Below, one piece after another: positions 10,704 through 34,073 of a stretch of DNA of 43,222 nucleotides (positions are counted from its first letter, which is position 1; each line of letters begins with the position of its first letter). This DNA comes from Syntrophomonas sp. (GTDB lineage Bacteria > Bacillota > Syntrophomonadia > Syntrophomonadales > Syntrophomonadaceae). Made by a program: the position numbers and the translations under genes. The DNA lies in contig JAENYG010000026.1 of the NCBI GenBank assembly GCA_016841875.1, positions 1-43,222 on the forward strand, given 5' to 3'. The notes below the pieces were generated by a model. The model saw nothing but the letters and a program-made list of their open reading frames with translations. It was not told where the DNA came from and searched no databases.

Positions 10704-10837
10704 TAGTAGTGCTAATGTAATAGTTGACCACTTAAACAATAAATAAGCATAAAAAAGTTGACCACCCTGAGAGCCCATGTCCTGTATGATTGAAGTTGAA
10801 AGACACCAATCGTATAGGAGGAAAGGAATTGCTCAGA

Positions 10838-12295: not shown

Positions 12296-13068
12296 ACGAA
12301 TATCTTGATCCTAAAGAGGCCGTGGTTGATATTTACTGTAAAGAGTTAAAGCTACCTGGGTTAAAGGTGTCTTTTCGTGAGATCGCCAGAGATGCTATGC
12401 TACAGAACCTAACCCCTGTGGCTTTCCTATCTGCCTGTCTTGCTAAAGAGGTAGAAACTAGGGCACAGAAAAGACTGAGTACCCGCCTAAGACAGGCTCG
12501 GTTTCATGAGGTTAAAACCTTAGAGAGCTTCGATTTTACTGGTGCTCCAAAGCTGCCTAAGACTACTATTATATCTTTGGCGGATTGTAAATTTATTAGA
12601 GATAGGGAAAACGTAATATGCGTTGGCCAGTCTGGGACTGGTAAAACCCACATTGCTACAGCCATAGCCGTGGCAGCTATTCAGCAGGGTTTTAAAGTTA
12701 GATTTATTAGGGTAAGTGACCTGATCCAAGAACTATTGAAAGCGGAGAGCGAATATCGCCTTCCAAGATACTTGAAAACCTGGAACAAGTTCGACCTGGT
12801 TATTTTGGATGAATTGGGATACATAAACCTTGGAGCTGGCAGTCCTTTACTCTTTCAATTCTGCTCGGAACGCTATGAAAGAGGTAGCTTAATCATAACT
12901 ACGAACCTGGATTTTGGCCGTTGGGGGGAGGTGTTCGGGGATAACGCTTTAACCGTAGCTCTCCTGGATAGGATAACTCACCACGCACATGTGATCCCGT
13001 TTGTTGGAGAGTCTTATAGGTTTAAGGAAAGTAAACAGAAGCTTGATATTGAACAATTACACAGCTAG
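12292..13068 (+). CDS. istB: IS21-family transposition ATPase IstB
   Basis: This AAA+ ATPase of 258 residues helps the IstA transposase select its target. Walker A is GQSGTGKTH (112-120) and Walker B is FDLVILDELGY. It also carries ITTNLDFGRWGEVFGD and the C-terminal LLDRITHHAHVIPF with GESYRFKES, all standard for IstB. The open frame extends upstream to TTG 12,253, but ATG 12,292 overlapping the istA stop is the natural coupled start. Confidence 0.95.
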   Translation: MNEYLDPKEAVVDIYCKELKLPGLKVSFREIARDAMLQNLTPVAFLSACLAKEVETRAQKRLSTRLRQARFHEVKTLESFDFTGAPKLPKTTIISLADCKFIRDRENVICVGQSGTGKTHIATAIAVAAIQQGFKVRFIRVSDLIQELLKAESEYRLPRYLKTWNKFDLVILDELGYINLGAGSPLLFQFCSERYERGSLIITTNLDFGRWGEVFGDNALTVALLDRITHHAHVIPFVGESYRFKESKQKLDIEQLHS

Positions 13069-19943: not shown

Positions 19944-20081
19944 TAAGGTTTAATTAAAAGGGACTTAACATATTATGGATCATCTTAGTCGTTAGCGGAA
20001 CCTCAAAATGCACATCAGGGGACAGGTTCAAACGTGAAAGAATCAGGTATTCTCGCCACAATGAAAAGGGGGATTACGAAA

Positions 20082-21080
20082 ATGACAACAAAAAATAACA
20101 AAACCTACTTAATTACTGGTGGAGCTGGCTTTATCGGCTTTTACTTATCTAAACAACTATTAGAACAAGGCTTAAAGGTAATTGGCTTCGACAATCTTAA
20201 TAATTATTATGATGTAAATTTAAAACAGAGCCGCTTGGGAGTTTTAAAAGACTTTGACAATTACAGCTTCATCAAAGGGGATCTAGCCAACAAGGATGAG
20301 GTCGAGGAAGTCTTTAATACATATCATCCTGATATTATTGTAAACCTAGGTGCCCAGGCTGGGGTCCGCTATAGCATTGAAAACCCGGATACCTATATTC
20401 AGTCGAATGTCATGGGCTTTTTTAACATCCTGGAGGGCTGCCGGCATAATAAAGTAGAGCATCTGGTCTATGCATCTTCTAGTTCTGTCTATGGAGCAAA
20501 TAAGAAAATTCCTTTTTCAACTGAAGATAAGGTGGACAAGCCGGTTAGTTTGTATGCGGCTACTAAGAAATCTAATGAGCTAATGGCGTACACATATAGT
20601 CATTTATATGGTATACCGGCTACAGGCCTGCGCTTTTTTACTGTATATGGGCCTTATGGACGACCGGATATGGCGTATTACTCGTTTACCAAAGCCATAC
20701 TAGAAGGCAAGCCGATTAAAGTTTTTAACCACGGTGATATGTATAGAGACTTTACTTACATAGATGATATTGTAACTGGTATCGTAAATATTTTACCTAA
20801 CCCACCACAAAAAGATGAAAACGGAGCAACACACAAATTATATAACATTGGCAACAACAAACCGGAAAAACTAATGGATTTTATTCAGACACTGGAACAA
20901 TGCCTGGGTAAAGAAGCAATTAAAGAATATCATCCTATGCAGCCCGGGGATGTTTATCAAACCTATGCGGATGTGACGGATTTGATGAATGACTTTGATT
21001 TTAAGCCCGACACTCCAATTAGCGTTGGTTTAGCTAAGTTTGTGGAGTGGTACCGGGAATATTATAAAGTTGGGAAGTAA
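20082..21080 (+). CDS. UDP-glucuronate 4-epimerase-like NAD-dependent sugar epimerase
   Basis: This is a short-chain dehydrogenase/reductase of the extended type. The NAD motif GGAGFIG lies at residues 13-19. FDNLNNYYDVNLKQSRL is typical of UDP-glucuronate epimerases (GAE/Cap1J). The catalytic Ser-Tyr-Lys set is SSSSVYG plus YAATKKSNE, and RFFTVYGPYGRPDMAY follows. It would interconvert UDP-GlcA and UDP-GalA, using the product of Ugd encoded next. The frame opens at GTG 20,034, but ATG 20,082 has AAAAGGGGG nine bases upstream and gives the normal N-terminus (332 residues). Confidence 0.9.
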   Translation: MTTKNNKTYLITGGAGFIGFYLSKQLLEQGLKVIGFDNLNNYYDVNLKQSRLGVLKDFDNYSFIKGDLANKDEVEEVFNTYHPDIIVNLGAQAGVRYSIENPDTYIQSNVMGFFNILEGCRHNKVEHLVYASSSSVYGANKKIPFSTEDKVDKPVSLYAATKKSNELMAYTYSHLYGIPATGLRFFTVYGPYGRPDMAYYSFTKAILEGKPIKVFNHGDMYRDFTYIDDIVTGIVNILPNPPQKDENGATHKLYNIGNNKPEKLMDFIQTLEQCLGKEAIKEYHPMQPGDVYQTYADVTDLMNDFDFKPDTPISVGLAKFVEWYREYYKVGK

Positions 21081-21110
21081 GAGTTAACAATAATAAGGGG
21101 AGAATTCAAA

Positions 21111-22277
21111 ATGAAAATAACAGTATCGGGAGCGGGATATGTGGGCTTATCAAATGCCGTTCTATTAGCACAACACAATGAAGTTATAGCATTAGACATT
21201 ATTCAAGAAAAGGTAGATATGATTAATAACAAGAAGTCGCCTATTATTGATGCCGAACTTGAAGATTATTTGGCTAATAAAGAACTAAATTTACAGGCGA
21301 CTACTGATAATTATATGGCTTATAAAGATGCTGAATATGTCGTTATTTCTACACCAACTAACTATGATCCCGACAAGAATTATTTTAATACCAGGACGGT
21401 AGAAGCGGTTATTGCTAATGTATTATCCATTAATCCGGATGCTGTAATGGTTATTAAATCAACAGTGCCGGTTGGATACACGGAAAAGGTAAAAGCAATG
21501 TTTGAGACTGATAATATTATCTTTTCTCCTGAGTTCTTAAGAGAAGGTAAAGCGCTTTATGATAATCTTTATCCGTCGAGAATTGTAGTTGGAGAGCAAT
21601 CGGAGAGAGCTAAGGTGTTTGCGGAGTTATTGGCAGAAGGGGCAATTAAGAAAGATATACCAATTCTTTATACCAATCCAACTGAAGCAGAAGCTATAAA
21701 ACTTTTTGCCAATACATATCTTGCATTAAGAGTCGCGTATTTTAATGAGCTTGATTCTTATGCGGAAGTGAGGGGACTTAATACACAACAGATTATAGAG
21801 GGTGTTAGTTTAGACCCAAGAATCGGCATGCATTATAATAATCCTTCATTTGGTTATGGTGGATATTGCTTACCGAAAGACACTAAGCAGCTCCTTGCCA
21901 ATTACGCTGATGTGCCGCAAAATATTATGTCTGCTATTGTGGATGCAAACAGAACCAGAAAGGATCATATAGCAGATATGATTCTTAAGAGACATCCGAA
22001 GATTGTTGGTATTTATAGATTAACTATGAAGACCGATTCAGATAACTTCCGTCAATCTGCTATTCAGGGGGTTATGAAGCGTATTAAGGCTAAAGGGATT
22101 GAAGTGGTAGTATATGAACCGGCCCTTGAAGCCGATGATTTTTATAATTCCCGAGTGATGAGAGATTTGGATGAATTTAAGCAGATATCTGATGCTATTG
22201 TTGCCAACAGGTTATCGGATGAGATTAAAGACGTGGTGGACAAGGTTTATACTAGGGATTTGTTTAGTAGGGATTAG
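21111..22277 (+). CDS. ugd: UDP-glucose 6-dehydrogenase
   Basis: This enzyme oxidises UDP-glucose to UDP-glucuronic acid with two NAD+. Motifs are [10 protein letters not shown] (7-16), ISTPTNYD (79-86), [26 protein letters not shown] and [15 protein letters not shown], with the catalytic cysteine C253. The SPEFLREG form and short 388-residue length separate it from the WecC homologue at 5,768. AAGGGGAG precedes the ATG. It closes the polysaccharide locus, and its product feeds the preceding epimerase. Confidence 0.95.
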
Positions 22278-22327
22278 TATTAAAGTTAGGAGCAATTTGA
22301 GTTGTAGATAGGAGGCTCACTCATCCA

Positions 22328-22954
22328 ATGGACAAGTCGAACTTTAAAGGTGCCATCACATCAATCCAACCACGAATAAGGCTAACTCGTTCATTTGATG
22401 AAGCCTCTCATACTTATTTGGGTTATGCAATTAAAATTGCCGGAACCATTGATAACCAGCAAGCTACTTTCTCCATTGGCATCGGCAAAGCAGCCCAAGC
22501 TAAATTCAACTTCAAAGTAAATGATGTTATCTCTGGTGAATGCCTCCCTGTTCCGGATCCGGACATGGAGCCGGTTGATTATTATAAAGTGTCGAAATTA
22601 GCTAAAATAGCAGAAGGAGTGCAAGGTAGCTTATCAGTACCCTGGGAATTGGTGCCGGCGGAGCTAGAGGTTTATCGGGAAAGGGGACACCGGAGACTGG
22701 CTGCCAGGACTTATGATACTAAATGCAGTAGCCGCATGTGGGGAGCTAGGATGCCGGTAGAAATTATAGTTGATAACTGGAACCCGAGAGGCAAGAGGAA
22801 GTACCGGTTTGAAACATTCTGTTATGGGCCTTTGAGTTGTAAGTTGTATAAGGCTGGTCCTAATAGGAGAGTAGAAGGCCGGAACGGGATGGTGTACGTT
22901 GAGGAAGATTGGGTTGATGAAACGACTGTGGCGCATAGGGAGATGGATGAATGA
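22328..22954 (+). CDS. Conserved hypothetical protein, 208 aa, possible OB-fold and Cys-rich C-terminus
   Basis: No function is recognised with confidence. Residues 1-95 alternate short hydrophobic strands and polar turns (FKGAITSIQPRIRLTRS, YAIKIAGTI, FSIGIGKAA, DVISGECLPV), which suggests a small OB-like barrel. The C-terminal half has RFETFCYGPLSCKLYKAGPN and ends in an acidic VEEDWVDE segment. From memory, homologues carry a C-x2-C-x3-C cluster just before this. Here the corresponding KCSSRMWGARM keeps only the first cysteine, so metal binding may be lost. GGAGG lies 13 bases before the ATG. It sits alone between the polysaccharide genes and the defence genes. Confidence 0.7.
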   Translation: MDKSNFKGAITSIQPRIRLTRSFDEASHTYLGYAIKIAGTIDNQQATFSIGIGKAAQAKFNFKVNDVISGECLPVPDPDMEPVDYYKVSKLAKIAEGVQGSLSVPWELVPAELEVYRERGHRRLAARTYDTKCSSRMWGARMPVEIIVDNWNPRGKRKYRFETFCYGPLSCKLYKAGPNRRVEGRNGMVYVEEDWVDETTVAHREMDE

Positions 22955-22998
22955 ACATGAGGGAAAAGGATATACCGGCTGAGAAAAACGATAATTAA

Positions 22999-23052
22999 CC
23001 CTTCGGCAGCGAGAAGAAATATAAGAAATGCTGCTTGGGGGAGGATGAAGGG
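22999..23052 (+). other. Nested hairpin before the GIY-YIG gene
   Basis: CCCTTC (22,999-23,004) pairs with GAAGGG (23,047-23,052). Inside it, GCAGC (23,006-23,010) pairs with GCTGC (23,030-23,034). A run of six T occurs at 23,069-23,074. The distance from stem to T run is too long for a normal terminator, so the role is unclear. Confidence 0.3.
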
Positions 23053-23127
23053 CTATAAGGTCGTTTAGTTTTTTCGGTCTGATAGGTGCACTATCGGAAG
23101 ATAAATAACCGCAACGGAGGGGTGGGG

Positions 23128-24012
23128 ATGCGCATACGGGGAAAAAGTATTAATTTATTTCTAATGGATGGCACAGCAAGTGGCCGCATCAAATGTACCC
23201 TGGCAAATTGGACGGGTTTGGCATATAAGATACCCCGCACTGAACTGGATAAATGTAAAGAACGGGATGATCTGAAGCAAAGCGGTGTTTATTTTCTTTT
23301 CGGAGTCTCTGATCTGACCGGAGAAAATGTAGTGTATATTGGTCAGGCCGGTGTTCGTAAAAACGGGGAGGGTATCCTCTTTCGGCTACAGGAACATAAG
23401 CGTAATCCGGATAAGGATTATTGGACTGAGGCGGTTGTTTTTACTACATCAAATAATTCTTTTGGTCCCACCGAAATCAGCTATCTTGAAAATCGGTTTT
23501 GCAACTTAGCTACTGAATCAAATCGGTATATTGTTAAGAATGGAAATGACCCAACTCCCGGGAATGTTACTGAAGAAAAGGAAAGTGAGCTGGAAGAGTT
23601 TATAGACTATGCCAAAATTGTGATGGGGACATTTGGACATAGAATATTTGAGCCAGTGGTAGAGATACCCCCTGAACCTTCCGTTGAACCGGTAAATACT
23701 GATGTTGAGCCTATACTCTATCTCAAAACGACGAAAGCGAATGCAAGAGGACGGAGAACTAATGAAGGATTTGTTGTTTTTAAAGATAGTACGGTTTCAA
23801 CAATTCCAACTAAGAGCTGCCCGGATACAATACTGCATTTACGAAAACTGTATGCGGAAAAGATTACAAATGATGTATTAACGGAGGATACTCTTTTCAA
23901 AAGTCCATCAGCTGCCGCAGGATTTGTAACCTATAGCAGCGCCAACGGATTGATTATGTGGATGACCGATGATGGCAGGACGTTAAAGGATATTGAAAAT
24001 GGTGAACCATAA
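23128..24012 (+). CDS. GIY-YIG nuclease-domain protein with C-terminal DUF4357
   Basis: The N-terminal half contains a GIY-YIG-like core: GVYFLFGVS, NVVYIGQAG, then RLQEHKRN and a glutamate in EISYLENRF. The C-terminal part (LKTTKANARGRRTNEGFVVF through the KSPSAAAGFV segment) matches DUF4357, a domain found on GIY-YIG and restriction-related proteins. It is probably a DNA-acting nuclease or a DNA-modification accessory. The open frame begins at GTG 23,086, but ATG 23,128 with GGAGG seven bases upstream is the better start (294 residues). It converges on the helicase gene, with a terminator between them. Its placement next to a defence operon suggests a defence role. Confidence 0.8.
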   Translation: MRIRGKSINLFLMDGTASGRIKCTLANWTGLAYKIPRTELDKCKERDDLKQSGVYFLFGVSDLTGENVVYIGQAGVRKNGEGILFRLQEHKRNPDKDYWTEAVVFTTSNNSFGPTEISYLENRFCNLATESNRYIVKNGNDPTPGNVTEEKESELEEFIDYAKIVMGTFGHRIFEPVVEIPPEPSVEPVNTDVEPILYLKTTKANARGRRTNEGFVVFKDSTVSTIPTKSCPDTILHLRKLYAEKITNDVLTEDTLFKSPSAAAGFVTYSSANGLIMWMTDDGRTLKDIENGEP

Positions 24013-24194
24013 TGGTGAATAACCCCCAATTCTTTATCAGTTTACCCAATTGCTGATTAATTAGGATTGGTGATCCGACAGTTTTTATTGACCGCCTAGG
24101 TAGGCTATGAAAATCCGAAACAATACCAAGCTATATTTTTTTACCCCTCATTAGCAGCAATCAGTCAGGAGTGCTAACAATAAAATTAAAGTAG

Positions 24195-24241
24195 AAAGAC
24201 CATGGCTGCGGTCTAAAGCTGATCATGGTCTTTGGTTTTTT
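24195..24241. terminator. Bidirectional intrinsic terminator
   Basis: A perfect 10-bp stem, AAAGACCATG (24,195-24,204) with CATGGTCTTT (24,224-24,233), encloses a 19-base loop and is followed by TTGGTTTTTT. It lies between the convergent GIY-YIG and HamB-like genes. On the other strand the stem is followed by a T-rich stretch, so it can serve both. Confidence 0.8.
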
Positions 24242-24243
24242 AA

Positions 24244-26853
24244 TCAGTCAACGAACAACTCCGGTATGTTGTATTGAATATCGGCAATTTCCCTGCGGAC
24301 ACTGGCACTGGGACAATTGGCGAGGGAGCGGCGGAGTTTAATTTCTCCGTTCTGCATTTTAACGACATAATCATCTCTATGCCTTCTTATGTATGTAGAT
24401 GTTTCACGGGAGAATCCATTTCTTTGAAGGGTTATGGAGAGCGGGTTTGTGGTTCCGTATTCCACATACTCATACCAATCATTTTGGAATGCTTCTACCT
24501 TATGAAAACGTTTATACTCTGATGAAAATCTTAGGAAATAATTAGAAATGCTAAACAGAATTACATTTTCGATTGCCTTTAACGTATCGGAAATTACAAT
24601 ATTTCGGTGTGGAAGTGTGTCATCATAAGGGATCTGTTTTCCATTTACTCTAACTCCAGACAAGGGATGGTCACGTTTGTAATCAAGAGTTTGCTCCATA
24701 ATAAAGCTCAGGCCGGTTCCTTTAATCCATTGTGAGAGGATAACTGCATACCATCTTAATTTGCCGTGGGACCCATCTTTACTAACGAAGCCAAGTTCGG
24801 ATCGCTCGTATACTTCCCACTTAAAGATTTTGCAGAGTTCATCCAGAAAATCCACTAAAGCCCAATAGTCTACGTTTCCTCTTTCATCTATCGCTGGATA
24901 TTTTAGTCCGCTGGCGATGGCATCTTTTAGATTGTATGTCTGGTCAAGGGAAGTATTGATGTCATCATCGAGCTGATTTTCGCTATTGCTAAAAACCTCT
25001 TTAATCCTGGACACGGTAACCTCATCCAGTAACGGTGCAAATTCTCTCCAAACAAGGCTCATATTGCCTTTTATTATATCCCTTAAAAGAATAATGGCGA
25101 ATTTCCGCATTAAGGCGTATGAATCTACTGATTGTTTACTTGGGTGCCTAGGCAGCTCTACATTGCCATTTAAAAGGCTGTCCACTATTAATTGTTTTTG
25201 AGGTTTTGTTAATTCCGTTGCAAGAGACAGCTTTTGCTCCGGGACTTCCTGCTTTAATAGATTTAGAAATTCTTTAGTTTTAACTTTTTCTTCAAGCCGG
25301 ACAAGAAATACATTGCCGTAGAGGTTGTATTCAATCCGGCCAACACGGCCAATAAGGTTTTTGAAATCCACTGGGGTCATCTTTGCCTGCCCATTTTTAT
25401 AATGGGTTATAAATAAATTATCGGCAGGAAGATTAACCCCCTCAACCAAAGTGCTGGTACAAAACATAGTATGGATTAGGCCTTTACGGAACAATTCTTC
25501 AATGCGCATCCGAATGGTGGCGGGCAAATAACCGATGTGGTATGCTACACCTTTGGAAATCACATCTGCCAGGTAATAATCGCCGTGAACTTCATTCTTA
25601 ATATCCTGTGCTAAAGTTAGAAGCTCTTTATCATCGCTTTGGGGTTTATCTTCAGCGAATTCACGGGCAAAGCCTACAGCTTTATCGGTTCCACTACAAT
25701 AAATAATATTTTGGGTGTTCTTGCCAATGCGCCATATTAGTTGGCAAAATGTAGGCTCCTTATGAATATTGGCGACAGGGGTCAAGGTGCCACTGTATGT
25801 ATTGAATAGCTGTATCTCTTTACCTGGAAAATCAATTAAATATTTTATTTGACTTACCGGTGCAAATGTGGTTGCTAGTCTCTGCTCGGCTTCGGCCTCT
25901 GCACCAGGTATCAGTTTCAAATAGACTTCTGGGTTCGGTATGTTAGGTGATGCAAAGATGACTTTAGGTTTTCTTGCTCGTTGGCAGAGCATATCCACCA
26001 CCTTGTAATAAAATGTGCTACGGGGACCTTTGGAAGAAATTTTATGAGCCTCGTCTACAAACAGGTAGTCAACCTCAATATGTGGATTGTCGATTAGCAG
26101 GTACAACAACCGCTCCGGGGTTAGGACGAATATGAAATTATGATCCTGTTTTAACGACAATGCACCAGCTGAGGTTACAAGCCTGTAATTTTGTTCAGCC
26201 AGAAGTTCCTTTAAATCATTAATAATCCTGCTGGTCACTTCATTTATAAGGGCCTTGGTGGGTACTAATATGGCGAAGTTGCAAGCGATGCCGTCCATAA
26301 TCTGCTTTTTTATATACATACGCATTATGAAGGATTTCCCCATAGAGGTAGGCCCCGAATAGCTAAAATAAGGCTCATTTAAGCGGTCGTATACGGCCTT
26401 TTGAGAACGGAAGAATTGGTATTCAGGTTCAGCCGGGATGCTCAAAAGGTTTTTACTAAACTCGGCGTAAAACCAATCAAGTAAAGATTTATGCCGGTAG
26501 TTGGGGGTGGCCATTGCCATACCACGATAATTGCCGGTGCTTGAAAGCACTGAGCCCAGGTAAAATTCAACGGCGGGGTGTTCCGGCTCAATGGTTCGAA
26601 GGAGCGCAACTATCTCTTGGGCCATTATTTTATGTTTGTCGGCCTTATTGCAGTCAGTAGACTTCGATAGGATATCTGCAAACCTTAGTGCATCTTCAAT
26701 ATTAACAAGTTTCTTTTCTCTTTTTTTAAGGTTAAACAGTTTTATTGAGTAGTTGTACAATAGATTATCGTACAACTCGTTTAAGTAGGGGTCGTAATCA
26801 ATATTAGTGAAAATAGCAGCACCTAAATTGATACTTTCCTGATTACTCATCAT
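24244..26853 (-). CDS. hamB: HamB-like superfamily 2 DEAH helicase of a Hachiman defence module
   Basis: This 869-residue ATP-dependent helicase has its superfamily 2 motifs in order. Motif I is SGPTSMGKS (166-174), Ia VPTKALINE (197-205), Ib TPERLL (245-250), II DEAH (267-270), III ASPNIPNP, V TSTLVEGVNLPADN (467-480) and VI LIGRVGR (501-507). A long C-terminal region has no obvious further motif. In Hachiman, HamB binds HamA and senses DNA damage or phage DNA. The ATG overlaps the HamA-like stop (ATGA), and GGGGGAGGGG precedes it. It is last in the four-gene - strand operon. The assignment rests on the helicase being coupled to a DUF1837 gene; AbpB is the main alternative. Confidence 0.85.
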   Translation of the reverse strand: MMSNQESINLGAAIFTNIDYDPYLNELYDNLLYNYSIKLFNLKKREKKLVNIEDALRFADILSKSTDCNKADKHKIMAQEIVALLRTIEPEHPAVEFYLGSVLSSTGNYRGMAMATPNYRHKSLLDWFYAEFSKNLLSIPAEPEYQFFRSQKAVYDRLNEPYFSYSGPTSMGKSFIMRMYIKKQIMDGIACNFAILVPTKALINEVTSRIINDLKELLAEQNYRLVTSAGALSLKQDHNFIFVLTPERLLYLLIDNPHIEVDYLFVDEAHKISSKGPRSTFYYKVVDMLCQRARKPKVIFASPNIPNPEVYLKLIPGAEAEAEQRLATTFAPVSQIKYLIDFPGKEIQLFNTYSGTLTPVANIHKEPTFCQLIWRIGKNTQNIIYCSGTDKAVGFAREFAEDKPQSDDKELLTLAQDIKNEVHGDYYLADVISKGVAYHIGYLPATIRMRIEELFRKGLIHTMFCTSTLVEGVNLPADNLFITHYKNGQAKMTPVDFKNLIGRVGRIEYNLYGNVFLVRLEEKVKTKEFLNLLKQEVPEQKLSLATELTKPQKQLIVDSLLNGNVELPRHPSKQSVDSYALMRKFAIILLRDIIKGNMSLVWREFAPLLDEVTVSRIKEVFSNSENQLDDDINTSLDQTYNLKDAIASGLKYPAIDERGNVDYWALVDFLDELCKIFKWEVYERSELGFVSKDGSHGKLRWYAVILSQWIKGTGLSFIMEQTLDYKRDHPLSGVRVNGKQIPYDDTLPHRNIVISDTLKAIENVILFSISNYFLRFSSEYKRFHKVEAFQNDWYEYVEYGTTNPLSITLQRNGFSRETSTYIRRHRDDYVVKMQNGEIKLRRSLANCPSASVRREIADIQYNIPELFVD

Positions 26854-27785
26854 ACAACCCCTCCCCCTAGAAGATCGCTCATGATACTCAGTTTTTCACC
26901 GTCAGCATCGTTAAACGGTAGTATGTAAAAATAAAATGAATGGGCGCTTAAATTTTCCTCTTTGATTTTCTTCACGATGTAGGCGGAATGGGCTTTAATA
27001 TCTAAGTTCATTCTTCGCTTAATCTCTTTACGAAAGGCCTCATTGGAATAATTGTCAGCTATCAAGCCAAGTGAATAACCAAGGAACACTCCGAACGCCC
27101 TGTCCACCGGGGTGTTTTTTTGTTTGCCTGGAATGATGAGGTTCCTAAGATAATCGGTAGTTTGGGCGTCATAAGCTTGGGCGAATATAGTGCTTTCCAC
27201 GAGTCGTAGTTCCTCTGAAGGATTGTCCCTGATGGTAACAAGGGAATTAAAGGCATTATCGATAGCATCTTGCAAATCACCGATGATATTGGATTTCCCG
27301 AAAACCATCTGGTATGAAGGGATTTCACCATTTTTAAGGGGCAGTAAATGAACGCCGCCACCATTTTGGATATTGTGATTACCGAATTGCACCAGCTCTA
27401 TTTTGTTATACAGCTTTGGTGCGCCAAGTATCTGTTCCAAAAATATATACAGCATCACATCGCCCAGTTCCTCGCCAATCCAGCTATCATCCATATTGCA
27501 CACATTGCGTAACAAGCTGATGGCTTGGAAGGCTATGGTCTCGGAATCTCCTTCTACATGGAACTGCTCAATTTTGGCCCGTGAGTAGACATACCTACCG
27601 ATATTCCTACGAAGGAAACGGTGCAAGGCATCTAAAGAAAATGCACTGGTTCCTACATTCAAATGGAACATGCGTAACTGATGGGGATTTTTAAGTCCCA
27701 GTGATTCCGCATGCTCTACCTCTGTAAAAATGCCATCAAACCCAACTTCTAACAGACTTTTCTTTAATAACTGCACTTGCACCAC
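26850..27785 (-). CDS. hamA: HamA-like DUF1837 protein of a Hachiman module, catalytic residues apparently replaced
   Basis: The 311-residue protein follows the DUF1837 layout. It has GEELGDVMLYIFLEQ (104-118), APKLYNKIEL (122-131), GGGVHLLPL (142-150) and VFGKSNIIGDLQDAIDNAF (161-179). HamA proteins are PD-(D/E)xK nucleases that degrade DNA with HamB. The usual pattern, as I know it, has Asp before V/I-H and a Gly-Glu-x-Lys motif. Here these positions read G143, K164 and N166, so nuclease activity is doubtful. Start codons GTG 27,785, 27,782 and 27,776 are all possible; the last is best spaced from GGGGG. AbpA is an alternative DUF1837 member. Confidence 0.82.
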   Translation of the reverse strand: MVQVQLLKKSLLEVGFDGIFTEVEHAESLGLKNPHQLRMFHLNVGTSAFSLDALHRFLRRNIGRYVYSRAKIEQFHVEGDSETIAFQAISLLRNVCNMDDSWIGEELGDVMLYIFLEQILGAPKLYNKIELVQFGNHNIQNGGGVHLLPLKNGEIPSYQMVFGKSNIIGDLQDAIDNAFNSLVTIRDNPSEELRLVESTIFAQAYDAQTTDYLRNLIIPGKQKNTPVDRAFGVFLGYSLGLIADNYSNEAFRKEIKRRMNLDIKAHSAYIVKKIKEENLSAHSFYFYILPFNDADGEKLSIMSDLLGGGVV

Positions 27786-27804
27786 CCCCGCTTAAATTAT
27801 TAAT

Positions 27805-28026
27805 TTACGGTTGAGATTCTCTTCTTGTCGATATACCCTCGCTAGCTTCACCGGAACGAATCCACTCGTCAACCTCGGAAATTTTAAACTTCCACAATCT
27901 ACCCACCTTATAGGCAGGCATATTTCGTTTTGCTATCCATTGCAGAACTGTTTCTCTGCCGATACCCAAATATTCTTGTATTTCCCTTAATGTTGACCAT
28001 TTTTCTAAGTTGTCTTTTTTGTCCAT
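27805..28026 (-). CDS. Excisionase/MerR-type helix-turn-helix DNA-binding protein
   Basis: This 73-residue protein is of the excisionase-family DNA-binding type (HTH_17). It shows WSTLREIQEYLGIGRETVLQ (winged HTH), followed by WIAKRNMPAYKVGRLWKFKI and SEVDEWIRSG. Such proteins bind DNA as recombination directionality factors or as small repressors. It starts two bases after the NBR1-Ig gene stop, with GGAGG seven bases upstream, and ends 19 bases before the HamA-like start. A role as the operon's own regulator, acting on the palindrome at 29,111-29,127, is a reasonable inference. No integrase is next to it. Confidence 0.88.
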   Translation of the reverse strand: MDKKDNLEKWSTLREIQEYLGIGRETVLQWIAKRNMPAYKVGRLWKFKISEVDEWIRSGEASEGISTRRESQP

Positions 28027-28028
28027 TA

Positions 28029-28940
28029 CTAAACCTCCGATGCGGTATTAGGTGTGTTTATTACTGTAGCCAATACTTTTAATGCTTTGTTTTTATCGGG
28101 GAAACACAGGCGGCCAGTCTTATCTTTCATTTCCCATATAGATTCAAAGGTGCCTTCAAAATGACGGGCATCAAATTGTACAGTCAGAAATACTTCATCG
28201 CCGGGCCTGGTTTCGGGAACAGCAGCCGCTACATTCATAGCCTTAATTCTTGTTTTAGATTGATTGGTACACTCAAAAACCCTATCTACCCAGGTAACTG
28301 TGCCAGTATTTTTGATTGTCCATTGGTGGTCGAATTCCTCATAAAAGGTTACTTCATGGTTTTGGGCAGGATGCTCACCGATTAACTGCAGATCATCACC
28401 GGGGTAAAACGGTGAAAGATCTTCGGGGGTGATTTTTGCAGGGTCTTTAGGAGGATTATTTTGCAATTTATCAATAACATCTGGCAGCACAAAACTTACA
28501 TCATCATTTTGAGATATAGCAAATTCTATAAATTGCTCATAAAGCCCCTCAAAGACCACTGTTCTATCAGTAAGTTCGGGGACTTCGAATGAATCACACA
28601 ATTTTGGAAATACCCTGGAGGATATAGCAAAATTGCAATAAGCAATAAAGGTTTCCTTATTCTTGTTCCCTTGTATGTAAGTCTTTATTGGTGATGAAAG
28701 ACCGCTGTATTTTTTGCTGCCGCCATATAATCTCTTCCGATATGTGGGATCGTCTCCAGTCAATCCTGTTGGCAGGAAGGAACTGCATCTGAAATCTCTA
28801 TTTTTATTTGATGACTCCTGGTTCGATCCGGCGGGATTAGTTTCACCACAAAGCGCAGAGAAAATCTCTAGTACAAACTGCCCTTGGTTGGAACAAGGGA
28901 AGTGTTTATATAATTTTCTAATAAACTCGCAGAAGCGCAT
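28029..28940 (-). CDS. NBR1-Ig-like domain protein, first gene of the Hachiman-type operon
   Basis: This 303-residue protein has two parts. Residues 1-165 form an unrecognised helical, cysteine-containing domain (FCEFIRKLYKHFPCS, then FEGLYEQFIEFAIS). Residues about 178-296 match the NBR1-Ig-like (Ig_NBR1) beta-sandwich: HQWTIKNTGTVTWVDRVF (206-223), VPETRPGDEVFLTVQF (241-256) and ESIWEMKDKTGRLCFPD (266-282). The conserved Trp residues W207, W217 and W269 are present. In eukaryotes this fold binds autophagy cargo; in bacteria its role is not established. There is no signal peptide. AGGGGG lies about nine bases before the ATG. Leading a Hachiman operon, it may be a sensor, adaptor or effector. 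Confidence 0.75.
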   Translation of the reverse strand: MRFCEFIRKLYKHFPCSNQGQFVLEIFSALCGETNPAGSNQESSNKNRDFRCSSFLPTGLTGDDPTYRKRLYGGSKKYSGLSSPIKTYIQGNKNKETFIAYCNFAISSRVFPKLCDSFEVPELTDRTVVFEGLYEQFIEFAISQNDDVSFVLPDVIDKLQNNPPKDPAKITPEDLSPFYPGDDLQLIGEHPAQNHEVTFYEEFDHQWTIKNTGTVTWVDRVFECTNQSKTRIKAMNVAAAVPETRPGDEVFLTVQFDARHFEGTFESIWEMKDKTGRLCFPDKNKALKVLATVINTPNTASEV

Positions 28941-29110
28941 CCTTTGTTCCCCCTCTCCCTACTATGAATTTACAAAGTGTCCCCAAAAAGTCCCCTTTTC
29001 CCGTCAGAAATACCCCTGATTGCTCTCCTTACAATTGAAGCTTGTCCCGCCATAATTAACTTATAGGACATCCAAGGGGGTGAATACACCACAAAAACCT
29101 TCTAATTAAT
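28941..29110 (-). other. Leader of the Hachiman-type operon
   Basis: About 170 bases separate the candidate promoter from the NBR1-Ig start. The segment is rich in short G runs when read on the - strand. A 33-codon frame (29,071 to 28,970, - strand) is present but lacks a ribosome site. No tRNA or clear riboswitch fold was seen. Confidence 0.3.
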
Positions 29111-29127
29111 TTATTGTATCACAATAA
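29111..29127 (-). promoter_or_regulatory. Extended -10 promoter overlapping a 7-3-7 palindrome (operator candidate)
   Basis: The 17 bases TTATTGTATCACAATAA are a perfect 7-bp inverted repeat with a 3-base spacer. On the - strand the same bases contain TGATACAAT, an extended -10 element (TG-N-TACAAT). No good -35 is seen, which is normal for extended -10 promoters. The arrangement suggests a repressor site blocking the promoter of the four-gene operon. Confidence 0.45.
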
Positions 29128-29245
29128 ATACCAAATAGGTGCCTTTAAATTTGTTGTTACTTATAAGCAGTTATAAACAGACAAACAAAAGAAAAGGCAT
29201 TGTCCTGGTGGTATAGATGCAGTCAAAGCAACTGTAACTAACGTA

Positions 29246-29286
29246 GCCGAACAGGCTCGCAACAAAAAAAAGCGAGTTTTTTCGGC
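29246..29286 (+). terminator. Composite hairpin with T run
   Basis: CTCGC (29,256-29,260) pairs with GCGAG (29,272-29,276), followed directly by six T (29,277-29,282). An outer GCCGA/TCGGC pair (29,246-29,250 with 29,282-29,286) encloses it. The A-rich loop also makes it terminator-like on the - strand. It separates the defence operon promoter from the prophage genes. Confidence 0.5.
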
Positions 29287-29330
29287 AAATAGTCGTGCCC
29301 TTTTTCTCGCTGAGGAAAGGGGCTTATTTT

Positions 29331-29804
29331 ATGTTCAGGAAGTTCAAAACCAGTAAAAAGAAGCGCACCAACTACATTTATTACGGCGAGGGTAGCAGCA
29401 AGACAGTATTAATACCGGGTGAGGATGGCGTTACAGAAGCAATTATTGAAACCCTGCACAGCCTCGATGATGAGGAAGTTGACAACGATCGCCGGGAAAC
29501 GAGAAGGCACAGCAATTTTGATGACCTAAACGACAAGGCGGAAATTCTCACTGATCCGGACAGTGACGTAGAAGATCGAATCATTTCTGCGCTAGAACGG
29601 GAGAGAGCCAAAACAATAGTAGATAATGCTATCTCTACTTTAAAGCCAAGGGAACAAAACATTATCAAGTGGCTTTATCTATCGGACAGCCCCCTATCTC
29701 AAGCTGAAGTTGGAGAACGACTTGGAATAGCGGAGGACAGTGTTAAAAAAAGTGCTTTTCGGATTAGGAAAAAGTTAAAAGAAATTCTCCAAGGCAAAAT
29801 TTAA
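29331..29804 (+). CDS. Sigma-70 region-4-like phage regulator
   Basis: The C-terminal half is a sigma region 4 helix-turn-helix: TLKPREQNIIKWLYLSDSPL, then SQAEVGERLGIAEDSVKKSA and FRIRKKLKEIL. The N-terminal half is basic, then strongly acidic (DDEEVDNDRRE, DPDSDVEDR), with no region 2. It is therefore likely a small phage transcription regulator rather than a complete sigma factor. The frame opens at 29,295, but ATG 29,331 has AAAGGGG eight to nine bases before it (157 residues). It is the first + strand gene after the defence operon. Confidence 0.78.
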   Translation: MFRKFKTSKKKRTNYIYYGEGSSKTVLIPGEDGVTEAIIETLHSLDDEEVDNDRRETRRHSNFDDLNDKAEILTDPDSDVEDRIISALERERAKTIVDNAISTLKPREQNIIKWLYLSDSPLSQAEVGERLGIAEDSVKKSAFRIRKKLKEILQGKI

Positions 29805-29812
29805 GGCATTTA

Positions 29813-29877
29813 TTTTGTCCACCTACCCCCTTTCTCGTGGCTTATATACGAAGGACAAAAACCACAGAAGGGGGAGG
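29813..29877 (+). ncRNA. Probable 5' leader RNA pseudoknot overlapping the ribosome site
   Basis: TTTTGTCC (29,813-29,820) pairs with GGACAAAA (29,853-29,860), a perfect 8-bp stem. Loop bases CCCCCTTTCT (29,826-29,835) pair with AGAAGGGGG (29,866-29,874), leaving one bulged T, and make an H-type pseudoknot. The second helix covers the first bases of the GGGGAGG ribosome site of the gene at 29,887. A bioinformatically defined 'DUF2800' RNA motif is known near such genes; I cannot say whether this is it. Confidence 0.55.
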
Positions 29878-29886
29878 TGATGAAAA

Positions 29887-30075
29887 ATGCTTAGACACCA
29901 CGTGGTAATCAACGTGTCAGATACAAAAGGGAAAAAGGTGAATGTCCTAAGAGGTGGGGATATAAAACTCCGCGATAGGATACTAAATTTCCTTTTAGGC
30001 AAAGAGCAGAAAATGCTGGTACTTGTACCCAGTGAAATTGTGGAATCAGTATCCATTAAAGAAGTTCAAAGATAG
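29887..30075 (+). CDS. Small phage protein, 62 aa, unknown function
   Basis: The protein has a short beta-rich start (HHVVINVSDTKGKKVNVLRG) and a second half with KMLVLVPSEIVESVSIKEV. No domain is recognised. GGAGG lies nine bases before ATG 29,887, inside the downstream arm of the putative pseudoknot, so its translation may be controlled. It is the first of the short-gap series leading to DUF2800. Confidence 0.6.
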   Translation: MLRHHVVINVSDTKGKKVNVLRGGDIKLRDRILNFLLGKEQKMLVLVPSEIVESVSIKEVQR

Positions 30076-30110
30076 CAGGCGATGCTGGACGTGGAAAGGA
30101 GGAAAACACG

Positions 30111-30446
30111 GTGAAAGTTGAGATTAATTTAAACCTTGATGAGTTTAAAAACCTACTAGTTAATTGTGATGAATTTAGGCAGCTATTAGCAACCGGCATA
30201 GAGGAACCGGCTACTGAAACAGTTGAGAGCGTTGGGGGCGTAAAAGGTGATGAGCCTTCGGCTACAAAGCAAGAACCTGAAAGCACAGTCACCATGGAAA
30301 CAGTCCGGGCCAAGCTTGCGGCATTAATGCAAATTGGCAAACAAGCTGAAGTCAAGGAACTACTTAAAAAACATGGCGGGGATAAACTCTCAGACATCCC
30401 TAAGGAAAATTACCCAGCCTTGTTAGCAGAAGCGGAGGCGATATAA
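30111..30446 (+). CDS. Small acidic phage protein, 111 aa, unknown function
   Basis: The N-terminus, MKVEINLNLDEFKNLL, is followed by an acidic linker of low complexity. The C-terminal helical part (VRAKLAALMQIGKQAEVKEL, then LKKHGGDKLSDI and YPALLAEAEAI) resembles the small modules often found directly before DUF2800 genes. Function is unknown. AAAGGAGG precedes GTG 30,111 by eight bases, and the stop directly touches the next ATG, so the two genes are probably translated together. Confidence 0.75.
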   Translation: MKVEINLNLDEFKNLLVNCDEFRQLLATGIEEPATETVESVGGVKGDEPSATKQEPESTVTMETVRAKLAALMQIGKQAEVKELLKKHGGDKLSDIPKENYPALLAEAEAI

Positions 30447-31607
30447 ATGGCTGAACATGCGTTACTTTCAGCCTCCGGCTCTGAGCGTTGGATTCAGTGC
30501 CAACCCTCAGCACGACTTGAGGAAGCGGTGGATGAGGAAACCAGTGAGTATGCAAAAGAAGGCAGTTTTGCCCACGGCCTGGCGGAAACATATCTAGCTC
30601 GTCATTTGGGGTCAATTAAAAAAAGTGAGTTTAACAAAAGGCTTAAGAAGCTAAAGCAAGATTCTTTCTATAACCAAGAGCTAGATGATTATGTGAATGT
30701 TTATGTGGAGTTTGCCATCGAGAAAATCAACGAGGCCAGGGCTAGAACAGCGGATGCGGTGGTGCTTTTGGAAATGAAGCTGGATTATTCCGAGTGGGTT
30801 CCCAGTGGTTTTGGCACCGGCGATCTGGTTTTAGTTAGCGATGATGTCTTGGAAGTAATTGACATGAAATTTGGACGTGGTATTGAAATTTCCGCCATCG
30901 ACAATAGTCAAATGCGGTTATACGGCTTAGGCGCATTGAATCAGTTCGGCTGCCTTTACAACATTAATACAGTCAGGATGACTATTGTGCAGCCTCGCTT
31001 AGATAATATCAGTACAGACGAAATGTCGGTTGATGATTTGATGTATTGGGCTACCAATACGGTCATGGGAGCAGCGGAAAAAGCCTGGAAGGGCGAGGGA
31101 GAATTCCTGCCGGGAGATCATTGTCGCTTTTGCCGGGTAAGAGCAACCTGTAGAGCAAGGGCCGAGGCTAACAACCGGCTGGCTTGCTACGATTTTCAGG
31201 AACCGCCCCTTTTAACGGACGAAGAAATCGTAGATGTGCTGGATGCCGCTGATGAATATATAAGATGGATTTCCGATGTACAGGCATTTGCTTTGGATCA
31301 GGCGGCTAACCACGGTAAACAGTGGGCCGGTTACAAGCTGGTAGAAGGCCGTAGTGTTAGGAAGTATATGGACGAGACCAAGGTAGCAAAAGCATTGCAG
31401 GCCGCAGGATATAGTGAAGACCAGATTTTTGAAAAAGTTCTGCTTGGTATTACCAAGATGGAAAAAGCGGTAGGTAAAAAGCAGTTCAATGAGCTGCTAG
31501 CTGGTCTGGTGGAAAAACCACCGGGTAAGCCCAAACTGGCACCCGAATCAGATAGGCGTTCAGCACTCAAGAGTACAGCTGAAATTGATTTTAAGGAGGA
31601 TATTTAA
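30447..31607 (+). CDS. DUF2800 protein, Cas4/RecB-like PD-(D/E)xK nuclease with probable Fe-S cluster
   Basis: This 386-residue phage protein opens with HALLSASGSERWIQCQPSAR, typical of DUF2800. The nuclease core shows VLEVIDMKFGRG (near residue 135), the D...xK part of a PD-(D/E)xK site, with QMRLYGLGAL downstream like the QxxxY motif of RecB nucleases. C18 together with the late cluster HCRFCRVRATC (about 225-235) gives the four cysteines used for a [4Fe-4S] cluster in Cas4 and AddB. It probably acts as an exonuclease in phage recombination, next to the DUF2815 protein. Confidence 0.88.
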   Translation: MAEHALLSASGSERWIQCQPSARLEEAVDEETSEYAKEGSFAHGLAETYLARHLGSIKKSEFNKRLKKLKQDSFYNQELDDYVNVYVEFAIEKINEARARTADAVVLLEMKLDYSEWVPSGFGTGDLVLVSDDVLEVIDMKFGRGIEISAIDNSQMRLYGLGALNQFGCLYNINTVRMTIVQPRLDNISTDEMSVDDLMYWATNTVMGAAEKAWKGEGEFLPGDHCRFCRVRATCRARAEANNRLACYDFQEPPLLTDEEIVDVLDAADEYIRWISDVQAFALDQAANHGKQWAGYKLVEGRSVRKYMDETKVAKALQAAGYSEDQIFEKVLLGITKMEKAVGKKQFNELLAGLVEKPPGKPKLAPESDRRSALKSTAEIDFKEDI

Positions 31608-31608
31608 A

Positions 31609-32133
31609 GTGAAAGTAGTTACAGGAAAAGTGAGATTTTCGTATCCAAATGTCTTTGAACCCAAATCAGTAAATGGTAGTGCCCCCCGATATAGCGTCAG
31701 CCTTATTATTCCCAAAAGTGATAAGAAGACGCTAGCCAAGATTAAAACCGCTATTGAGGCGGTTAAAAAGGAAGGAGCCCACAAGTGGGGCGGCAAGGTT
31801 CCGGCTAATTTGAGATTGCCTTTGAGAGACGGAGACGTGGACAGGGCGGACGATGAGGCATACGCAAACAGTTATTTCATTAATGTCAACAGCAATACCA
31901 AGCCGGGGATTGTGGACGGGGACCTAAACCCCATCATGGATCAGAGTGAGTTTTACGCTGGTTGCTATGGCAGGGCATCAATCGTGTTTTTTGCTTACAA
32001 CACCAACGGTTCCCGGGGCATCAGCGCAGCTCTTCAAAATCTGCAGAAGTTGGAAGATGGCGAACCCTTGGGCGGCAAGTCTAGACCAGAAGATGACTTC
32101 GGTGGAGATTTTGACGAGGATCTTTTAGGATGA
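31609..32133 (+). CDS. DUF2815 protein, probable phage single-stranded DNA-binding protein
   Basis: The protein begins KVVTGKVRFSYPNVFEPKSV and continues with YSVSLIIPKSDKKTLAKIKT and GFYAG-like segments of the DUF2815 family (EFYAGCYGRASIVFFAYNTN). The C-terminus is acidic and disordered, ending DFDEDLLG, as in SSB-type proteins. It probably coats single-stranded DNA during replication or annealing. The frame opens at TTG 31,585, but GTG 31,609 after AAGGAGGAT is the better start (174 residues). It overlaps the polymerase start by four bases. Confidence 0.85.
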   Translation: MKVVTGKVRFSYPNVFEPKSVNGSAPRYSVSLIIPKSDKKTLAKIKTAIEAVKKEGAHKWGGKVPANLRLPLRDGDVDRADDEAYANSYFINVNSNTKPGIVDGDLNPIMDQSEFYAGCYGRASIVFFAYNTNGSRGISAALQNLQKLEDGEPLGGKSRPEDDFGGDFDEDLLG

Positions 32134-34073
32134 GAACTTTAGCTTTGGATTTAGAGACTTATTCGGGTGTAGACCTCACTAAAAGTGGGGTCTATGCCTA
32201 CACCAACTCATCGGATTTTGAAATATTACTGCTGGCTTATGCCTTTGATGATGACCCGGTAGAAATAATTGACCTGGCCAGCGGTGAAAAAGTGACAGAC
32301 GAGGTTTGGGAAGCATTAATAAATTCTGAAGTGGTAAAGACAGCTTTTAATGCTAATTTCGAGAGAACCTGCCTAACAAGGTATTTTAATACATCGATGC
32401 CACCGGAGGAGTGGCGTTGTAGCCAGGCCCATGCTTTGACCCTGGGTCTTCCAGCTAGCTTAGAAGGGGTGGCCAAGTGTCTAAAGCTTTCTCAAAAGAA
32501 AATGCAGGAGGGGAAGCAGTTAATTCGCTTCTTCTCCATGCCTTGCAAACCCACTAAAACTAATGGTGGAAGAACCAGAAATCTACCGGAACACGACCTA
32601 GAGAAGTGGGAGTTATTTAAGACCTATTGCAAACAGGACGTGGAAGTGGAGCGTTCTATCCGGCAAAAGTTAAATAATTACCCTATGCCGGAGCAGGAAC
32701 TGAAACTATGGTATTTAGACCAGCGCATTAATGATTACGGATTGCGGGTGGATATGAAGTTAGTGAAAAGCGCTCTTTTGTGTGATGAAGGTTATCAGAT
32801 AAAACTTATACAGGAAGCCAAGCAATTAACCGGGCTGGAGAACCCCAACAGCCCCGCCCAGCTAAAAAGTTGGCTGCAAGATAAACACGGTATCCAAGTG
32901 GAAAGCCTAGCCAAGGATACAGTAACAGAAATATTGGAAGAAGTGGCCAACCCGATAGTTAAACGGGCCTTAGAGCTAAGACAAGAAATGTCCAGAACTT
33001 CGGTTAAAAAATATGAAGCTATGGATAGAGCAGTCTGTGAGGATGACCGAGTGAGGGGGCTGCTGCAGTATTACGGAGCCTCGACTGGTCGGTTTGCGGG
33101 GAGGTTGGTTCAAATCCACAACCTACCCAGGAATAACATGAGCGATTTAGACCTAGCTCGGAGGTTATTGTCAGCGGGGCATTATGAGGCTTTGGAAATA
33201 TTGTTTGAATCGGTACCCGATGTTTTATCTCAGTTAATTAGAACGGCCTTCATCCCCTCCCCCGGCCATCGTTTTATAGTATCGGATTTTTCAGCGATTG
33301 AAGCCAGAATTATTGCTTGGCTGGCCGGTGAAAAATGGAGGCTGGATGTATTTAATACCCACGGCAAAATTTATGAAGCCTCGGCAGCCCAAATGTTCGG
33401 GGTGCCAATAGAGAGCATCACCAAAGGCAGCGAGCTTCGGCAGAAGGGTAAAATAGCGGAACTTGGACTTGGTTATCAGGGAAGTGTTGGAGCTCTGAAA
33501 TCCATGGGCGCACTGAAAATGGGCTTACAAGAAGCAGAGCTGTCGGGAATAGTATCAGCTTGGCGTAAGGCTAACCCCAAAATAGTTAAACTTTGGTGGA
33601 CCATAGAAGAAGCGGCTATCCGGGCTGTAAGGGATAGAACGACAGAAAAGCTACAGCGCAAAGTGAAGCTTTATTACAAAGGCGGTGTGCTGTTTATGCA
33701 ATTACCCTCGGGGCGGAGCTTGGCTTATGTACGACCTAAAATTGAGCTGGATGAGCGTTATGGCAAGGACAAATTGACCTACGAAGGTGTGGAGCTGGGC
33801 AAATGGTGCCGGATTGATACCTATGGAGGGAAGTTGGCGGAGAATTTGACCCAGGCAATTGCTAGGGATTGTTTAGCTGAATCGCTTTTAAGACTTGATG
33901 CTGCCGGTTACAAAATAGTAAGTCACATACATGACGAAGTGGTGCTAGATGTCCCCCACGGTTTTGGCTCCCTAAAAGAAGTGGAAGCAATTATGAGTGA
34001 GGATATTGACTGGGCACCGGGGTTACCGATGAGGGCAGATAGCTTCGAGGCGGACTACTACAAAAAAGATTAG
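32130..34073 (+). CDS. Phage family-A DNA polymerase with 3'-5' exonuclease domain
   Basis: The N-terminus carries an exonuclease motif DLETYSG (6-12), with FNANFERTCL as Exo II-like and YCKQDVEVERSI as Exo III-like segments. The polymerase domain shows motif A VSDFSAIEARIIAWLAG (near 385), an O-helix region RQKGKIAELGLGYQGSVGAL, and motif C HIHDEVVLDV (near 600). It is 647 residues long, with no 5'-3' exonuclease domain, as usual for phage enzymes of this module. ATG 32,130 overlaps the DUF2815 stop. It is the phage's main replicative polymerase by inference. Confidence 0.95.
   Translation: MRTLALDLETYSGVDLTKSGVYAYTNSSDFEILLLAYAFDDDPVEIIDLASGEKVTDEVWEALINSEVVKTAFNANFERTCLTRYFNTSMPPEEWRCSQAHALTLGLPASLEGVAKCLKLSQKKMQEGKQLIRFFSMPCKPTKTNGGRTRNLPEHDLEKWELFKTYCKQDVEVERSIRQKLNNYPMPEQELKLWYLDQRINDYGLRVDMKLVKSALLCDEGYQIKLIQEAKQLTGLENPNSPAQLKSWLQDKHGIQVESLAKDTVTEILEEVANPIVKRALELRQEMSRTSVKKYEAMDRAVCEDDRVRGLLQYYGASTGRFAGRLVQIHNLPRNNMSDLDLARRLLSAGHYEALEILFESVPDVLSQLIRTAFIPSPGHRFIVSDFSAIEARIIAWLAGEKWRLDVFNTHGKIYEASAAQMFGVPIESITKGSELRQKGKIAELGLGYQGSVGALKSMGALKMGLQEAELSGIVSAWRKANPKIVKLWWTIEEAAIRAVRDRTTEKLQRKVKLYYKGGVLFMQLPSGRSLAYVRPKIELDERYGKDKLTYEGVELGKWCRIDTYGGKLAENLTQAIARDCLAESLLRLDAAGYKIVSHIHDEVVLDVPHGFGSLKEVEAIMSEDIDWAPGLPMRADSFEADYYKKD

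Follow-up and report, generated by a model that had tools for sequence, protein, structure and literature searches.

The window analyzed here is a 43,222-nucleotide stretch of Syntrophomonas sp. DNA (contig JAENYG010000026.1 of assembly GCA_016841875.1), and it carries on its reverse strand an operon of the Hachiman defence type. The operon opens with a gene (28029..28940) for a 303-amino-acid (aa) protein, here called NTD-FW, which joins a helical N-terminal domain (NTD) to an NBR1-type Ig-like (FW) domain (Pfam N_BRCA1_IG, 4.5e-9). It is followed by a gene (27805..28026) for a 73-aa helix-turn-helix (HTH) protein of the excisionase family (HTH_17, weakly MAD1-like), by hamA (26850..27785), and by hamB (24244..26853). 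HamB is a Ski2-like DEAD-box sensor helicase of 869 aa (PADLOC PDLC00190, 1145 bits; Pfam DEAD and Helicase_C), in which the motifs PTSMGKS and DEAH and the C-terminal helicase motifs read as intact. The HamA homologue (311 aa, GTG start) ends in a stop codon that overlaps the start of hamB; it lacks the D-E-x-K nuclease residues and is therefore referred to as dHamA.

That dHamA is a HamA protein was supported by both profiles and structure prediction. Pfam PF08878 (DUF1837) matches it at 2e-40 (residues 53-291 to profile positions 2-230 of 230), and PADLOC HamA PDLC00162 matches residues 7-309 with 372 bits (7e-112), so that the profiles cover the whole protein, in agreement with the original prediction of a full-length gene, and leave it without a fused effector or protease. 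The AlphaFold (AF2) model (pLDDT 90, pTM 0.90) has HamA structures as its best matches in the Protein Data Bank (PDB), namely, 8zue (Z 17.0, rmsd 4.1, 260 aligned) and 8vx9 (Z 14.4, rmsd 4.0, 228 aligned), and unrelated structures follow at Z ~5.

The original prediction, made from the letters alone, had placed G143, K164, and N166 at the positions of the catalytic Asp, Glu, and Lys and took the nuclease site to be apparently lost. Both statements were borne out by alignment to the canonical-motif relatives L022, L028, and L047 (L numbers denote loci), which are 44-48% identical to dHamA: 'NGGGVHLL...FGKSN' of the window protein aligns to 'FGSDGVHLL...(F/L)GESK', and both motifs are gap-free. 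The codon of G143 lies at 27357..27359 and those of K164-S165-N166 (Glu-Ser-Lys in the canonical relatives) at 27288..27296, both on the reverse strand. A structure model, which had been proposed as a check, keeps the HamA fold and places these residues at the motif strands; more specifically, G143 heads the core strand 144-150, and K164 and N166 end the next strand (157-167), as expected for HamA. The canonical motif has been given as D-E(x)K, and a double mutant of the E. coli ECOR31 HamA (E138A,K140A) abolishes defence (PMC12278908); it has also been given as D-GEXK (PMC12799240).

The pattern of substitution goes beyond chance: across 61 degenerate representatives, position 164 never holds an acid (0/61), position 163 is invariant, and positions 165 and 166 rank 23 and 183 in conservation among 311. 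The residue types at 164 and 166 vary freely among chemically unrelated residues, and their neighbours are almost invariant. We saw no conserved replacement catalytic set in the HamA alignment (the 61 degenerate representatives plus the canonical relatives), which speaks against intact D, E, and K residues elsewhere in the protein, and no second, active HamA was found in the source genome. Thus, the loss of the motif is observed, and dHamA would no longer cut DNA. Annotation by the HamA profile alone would label such systems nucleases.

The loss extends far beyond the window. Relatives were gathered by a scan with a seven-member alignment, which picked up 80 loci on genome contigs and 45 on viral ones; viral contigs scanned with the window HamA as a single-protein query returned no relative. 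The D-E-K set is present in 3 of the 109 distinct HamA domains and missing in 106, and the clade with dHamA spans Bacillota, Actinomycetota, and phages. The nearest relatives, L012 and L013 (86-87% identical), and then L014 to L017 and L008, share the substitutions, which argues against a change confined to one strain: the G-K-N set recurs in L008 and L012 to L016, and every member of the window subclade carries it except L017, which has G-K-H. On a maximum-likelihood HamA tree built with the motif columns removed, a single change, with support of 100/99, separates canonical from degenerate rows, which places the loss of the site in one ancient event, ancestral to the clade. The dN/dS of dHamA versus L013 is ~0.15 (dN 0.064, dS 0.428), pointing to purifying selection rather than simple decay, as had been suspected; together, these results indicate that the site was lost once and the protein kept.

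The NTD-FW gene is closely associated with degenerate HamA. It heads the operon in 47 of the 48 standalone degenerate HamA loci with covered upstream DNA, the exception being L067, a truncated locus that by reading has just a restriction-gene remnant upstream. Where degenerate HamA carries a fused N-terminal domain, the gene is absent from all covered loci (0/32); one TIR fusion, counted apart, has it. Among canonical controls, none of 12 E-x-K HamAs drawn at random across the phylum had NTD-FW in the flanking DNA retrieved, and the sole NTD-fused HamA of that draw was degenerate. Likewise, no NTD-FW gene was found in the whole genomes carrying canonical L022 and L028. Among covered loci, almost all degenerate HamAs are thus accompanied by an NTD, either fused to them (cis) or on a separate protein (trans); a cis/trans rule, to which the truncated L067 is the one exception, would describe these sequences. 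In the source genome, the fused-NTD profile found no second NTD protein, and the NTD-FW profile found the window gene alone.

Searches blind to HamA gave the same picture. With NTD-FW alone as query in ~800 genomes from the families of genomes G444 and G445 (Lachnospiraceae and Oscillospiraceae), intact NTD-FW genes with covered downstream DNA were found to precede HamA in L211 and L212 (degenerate) and in L210 (split), and in a separate scan two viral contigs showed NTD-FW before a degenerate HamA (L178) and before a HamA cut by the contig end (L175). Where NTD-FW is broken (L213, L214, L215, and L218), HamA and HamB are gone or reduced to a remnant (a 46-aa HamA fragment), and restriction genes and the HTH gene persist in L214 and L215. 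NTD-FW is thus kept or lost together with HamAB, and the HTH gene goes with the restriction genes.

The two domains of NTD-FW were then characterized separately. The FW domain (residues 180-297; 28050..28403), a probable docking domain, matches PF16158 (N_BRCA1_IG) above the cut-off in the window protein, and this family matches 32/32 members. The best PDB matches of the AF2 model (pLDDT 86.6) are the FW domains of ILRUN and NBR1 (6vhi, Z 13.5; 4ole, Z 13.1); the match lists obtained from the full model are taken up by FW-domain matches, and no NTD fold match is among them. The NTD (residues 1-175; 28416..28940) has no named family in Pfam or NCBIfam and shares homology with the domain that other dHamAs carry as a fusion. 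The NTDs of the FW proteins L034 and L035 match PDLC00164, the fused-HamA profile, over its N-terminal part (1.9e-20 and 6.5e-17), and the remaining NTDs, with these two removed, align to the HamA-fused domains at an hhalign E of 4e-6. The fused-NTD profile recognizes 52/52 non-TIR N-terminal extensions of fused HamAs, most of its rows being derived from those extensions. Similarly, the NTD matches the N-terminal domain of an LmuA protein of Lamassu (L144; hhalign E 2.3e-9, hmmsearch 2.6e-6), which was itself assigned to PDLC03857 (2.8e-105) and ends in an ABC-3C CTD6 domain. Shuffled and reversed hhalign controls gave E values of 0.16-0.51. The effector role in LmuA is presumed to belong to its N-terminal domain, with docking left to the C-terminal one (PMC10586767).

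A recombination breakpoint is placed at the NTD/FW junction (28410..28440). The window and L013 share 91% nucleotide identity over 4.3 kb (24131-28418), and identity is at background level upstream of the junction. At the protein level, identities to L012/L013 are 77-78% for FW, 87% for HamA, and 92-94% for HamB; the window NTD is 23% identical to that of L013 and 56% identical to that of L094. A swap at this junction fits an exchangeable output module on a retained dock.

We consider it rather probable that dHamA is a catalytically dead HamA fixed in an old Hachiman lineage, in which HamB senses, dHamA transduces, and NTD-FW provides the output in trans. By extension from canonical Hachiman, in which HamB senses DNA ends and damage and HamA is the effector (PMC12278908, PMC12799240), HamB would scan DNA and hydrolyze ATP on meeting phage DNA that is damaged or single-stranded. 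Without cutting, dHamA would act as a structural transducer that relays the state of HamB, probably via a change of oligomeric state, a mechanism suggested for the dHamA of PflHamMAB. The precedent for this role is HamMAB, in which dead HamA is required to activate its fused protease, apparently by oligomerization (PMC12799240). The output would come from the NTD module, fused in front of dHamA in sister lineages and carried here on a separate FW protein, whose FW domain probably docks the NTD onto dHamA-HamB. The original prediction had named an NBR1-Ig partner as one possible source of the missing function; co-occurrence, homology, and shared decay make this the best-supported, if still hypothetical, option. 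That prediction did not include the HTH gene, the spread of the loss across the clade, or the partner NTD's homology to HamA-fused and LmuA domains.

Several observations weigh against this interpretation. The conservation of the NTD is low and it has no obvious catalytic residues; lacking a recognizable catalytic motif, it may serve as a scaffold and not as an enzyme. The TIR-dHamA loci L019 and L145 keep NTD-FW although a TIR effector is already fused, and therefore the NTD may be a co-factor or scaffold, not the final enzyme or sole output. Because the motif was lost only once, the coincidence of that loss with the NTD counts as one observation in phylogenetic terms; only the later cis/trans switches, which bring the total to 5 label changes, ease this limit. 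Furthermore, FW and NTD track HamA weakly across 30 loci (Mantel rho 0.20 and 0.28), and strict FW-HamA co-evolution was rejected on this basis. In L054 versus L072, FW is 92% and NTD 80% identical, yet HamA is 38% and HamB 53% identical, and NTD-FW has moved between HamA lineages; HamAB was replaced, and the front half of the operon stayed constant. Given the weak tracking and this movement, a fixed FW-dHamA contact is not claimed.

Other explanations were weighed against the same evidence. It is unlikely that the output is another nuclease, either a restriction enzyme encoded within the sister operons or, here, the GIY-YIG-like neighbour at 23086-24012, with NTD-FW as a recruiting adaptor. 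Most sister loci do hold type I or type III restriction genes between NTD-FW and dHamA, and the neighbour, a PDC-S14 protein, adjoins the window operon; however, the window subclade has no restriction genes in the operon and still keeps NTD-FW, HTH, and dHamA-HamB, the GIY-YIG-like gene lies on the opposite strand and was not seen (by reading, where flanks are covered) beside the operon in L008, L012, L013, L016, and L017, and where loci have decayed, NTD-FW has gone the way of HamA and the restriction genes have outlasted both. We likewise think it improbable that HamB, acting on phage DNA, is itself the effector and NTD-FW an activator, inhibitor, or adaptor of dHamA-HamB. In its favour, no other large component is as conserved as HamB (92-94% to L012/L013), and TIR fusions keep NTD-FW; against it, canonical HamAB requires the HamA nuclease, as the E138A,K140A mutant attests (PMC12278908), and the NTD occupies the effector slots of fused HamA and LmuA.

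It is very unlikely that dHamA still cuts DNA by means of a different residue set. Asp is retained at position 143 in 35 of the 61 degenerate representatives, and the charged residues E117, K124, and H146 remain invariant; however, these three are identical in canonical HamA, which cannot do without its E-x-K pair, the other well-conserved residues, E130 and D176, lie off the two motif strands, the residues found at 164 and 166 in different clade members are chemically unrelated, and the window subclade has lost all three motif residues. Finally, gene decay, a sequencing error, or a single-strain mutation is highly improbable, and was ruled out as a candidate by the dN/dS and the shared substitutions, the gene being full length and the same residues recurring in independent assemblies and viral contigs.

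Comparison with known systems helps to place the operon that we interpret as a trans-effector system. It resembles Hachiman HamAB of E. coli ECOR31 (PMC12278908) in HamA fold, HamB helicase, adjacent genes, and family profiles, and differs in having lost D-E-x-K and in adding the NTD-FW and HTH genes. Like the HamMAB protease-dHamA fusion of P. fluorescens (PMC12799240), it retains a dead HamA with HamB and would have moved the output to another protein; there, however, the protease fused to dHamA activates a separate MBL nuclease, whereas the window dHamA is unfused and no protease or MBL nuclease was recognized in the operon, the genes upstream of hamA being HTH and NTD-FW. PMC12799240 mentions further HamA fusions in its supplementary figures. 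AbpAB also combines an inactive HamA domain with a HamB-like helicase, but AbpA, a Cap4-like nuclease fused to inactive HamA (PMC12278908), has its own nuclease domain, and the window dHamA has no extra domain. The Lamassu/ABC-3C LmuA type PDLC03857 shares the homologous N-terminal domain; it differs in its CTD6 docking domain and SMC-like LmuB system, for which the window has FW as the probable dock and HamB as the sensor, and no LmuA/ABC-3C C-terminal docking domain was found in NTD-FW (no PADLOC LmuA match; an FW domain instead). NBR1/ILRUN proteins share the FW fold (Z 13); this domain is known to bind proteins and has been described in bacteria before (PMC9582228). They differ from the window protein, which lacks autophagy domains, joins FW to the NTD, and is linked to Hachiman.

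The HTH protein is 55-89% identical across most NTD-FW loci, and no relative was found in L031, L034, or L035. It matches NF047737 (MAD1) with 65 bits, under the 80-bit cut-off, and PADLOC mad1 at 3e-8; no further MADS family matched the window proteins scanned, and the MADS system as a whole was not searched for. A presumed conserved non-coding element between NTD-FW and hamA (81% nucleotide identity to L094) proved to be this 73-aa gene, and an Rfam search of 20000-32000 found nothing. In sister loci (L002, L145, L210-L212, and L214), type I or type III restriction-modification genes usually separate NTD-FW/HTH from dHamA-HamB, and the whole forms a single long, composite operon of defence genes. 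The HTH gene is likely tied to the restriction-modification genes of the sister operons. The window subclade without such genes comprises L008, L012, L013, L016, and L017. TIR is fused to degenerate HamA in L005/L019/L020 (Syntrophomonas zehnderi) and in L145 (genome G189), with SKR in L005/L019; where covered, the TIR-dHamA operons also hold NTD-FW and type I restriction genes.

The Hachiman operon is carried on a prophage. Positions 29295-34073 place the defence genes beside early genes of ArpU-like, DUF2800-, DUF2815-, or DNA polymerase-type (by reading), and the same position is occupied in the related prophages L092, L013, L016, L035, L108, and L144, which reads as a prophage defence hotspot; L144 holds LmuA instead. 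Adjoining the operon on the other strand (23086-24012, +) is a gene for a GIY-YIG-like (by reading) and DUF4357 protein that matches the phage-defence candidate PDC-S14 (1.5e-111). A likely toxin-antitoxin pair, RelE-like and AbrB-like by reading, is found near the contig end (42139-42824, -), and a polysaccharide/capsule-type cluster (186-22277, by reading) is broken at 10790-13068 by an IS21-like istA/istB pair.

Dead HamA has already been published for protease fusions and AbpA; the standalone trans form with NTD-FW appears new. The literature searched, which left out supplements and most subscription papers, so that earlier mention is possible, contained no standalone dead HamA with NTD-FW in trans, no cis/trans rule, no NTD common with LmuA, and nothing linking NBR1 with Hachiman or DUF1837 with Ig-like domains. 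We give roughly even odds to the wider proposal that the NTD is an undescribed immune output module, interchangeable between Hachiman (in cis, or in trans via an FW dock) and Lamassu LmuA, and that the window operon represents a trans-effector Hachiman subtype in which the dead nuclease serves solely as transducer and which has no gene for a known effector enzyme. The inactive HamA of AbpAB has been called enigmatic by Tuck et al. (PMC12278908), and the dHamA clade constitutes a large natural experiment on that question. The clade suggests that the lasting role of HamA is the transmission of the HamB signal, a proposal that it makes testable, and points to an unnamed output module common to Hachiman and Lamassu.

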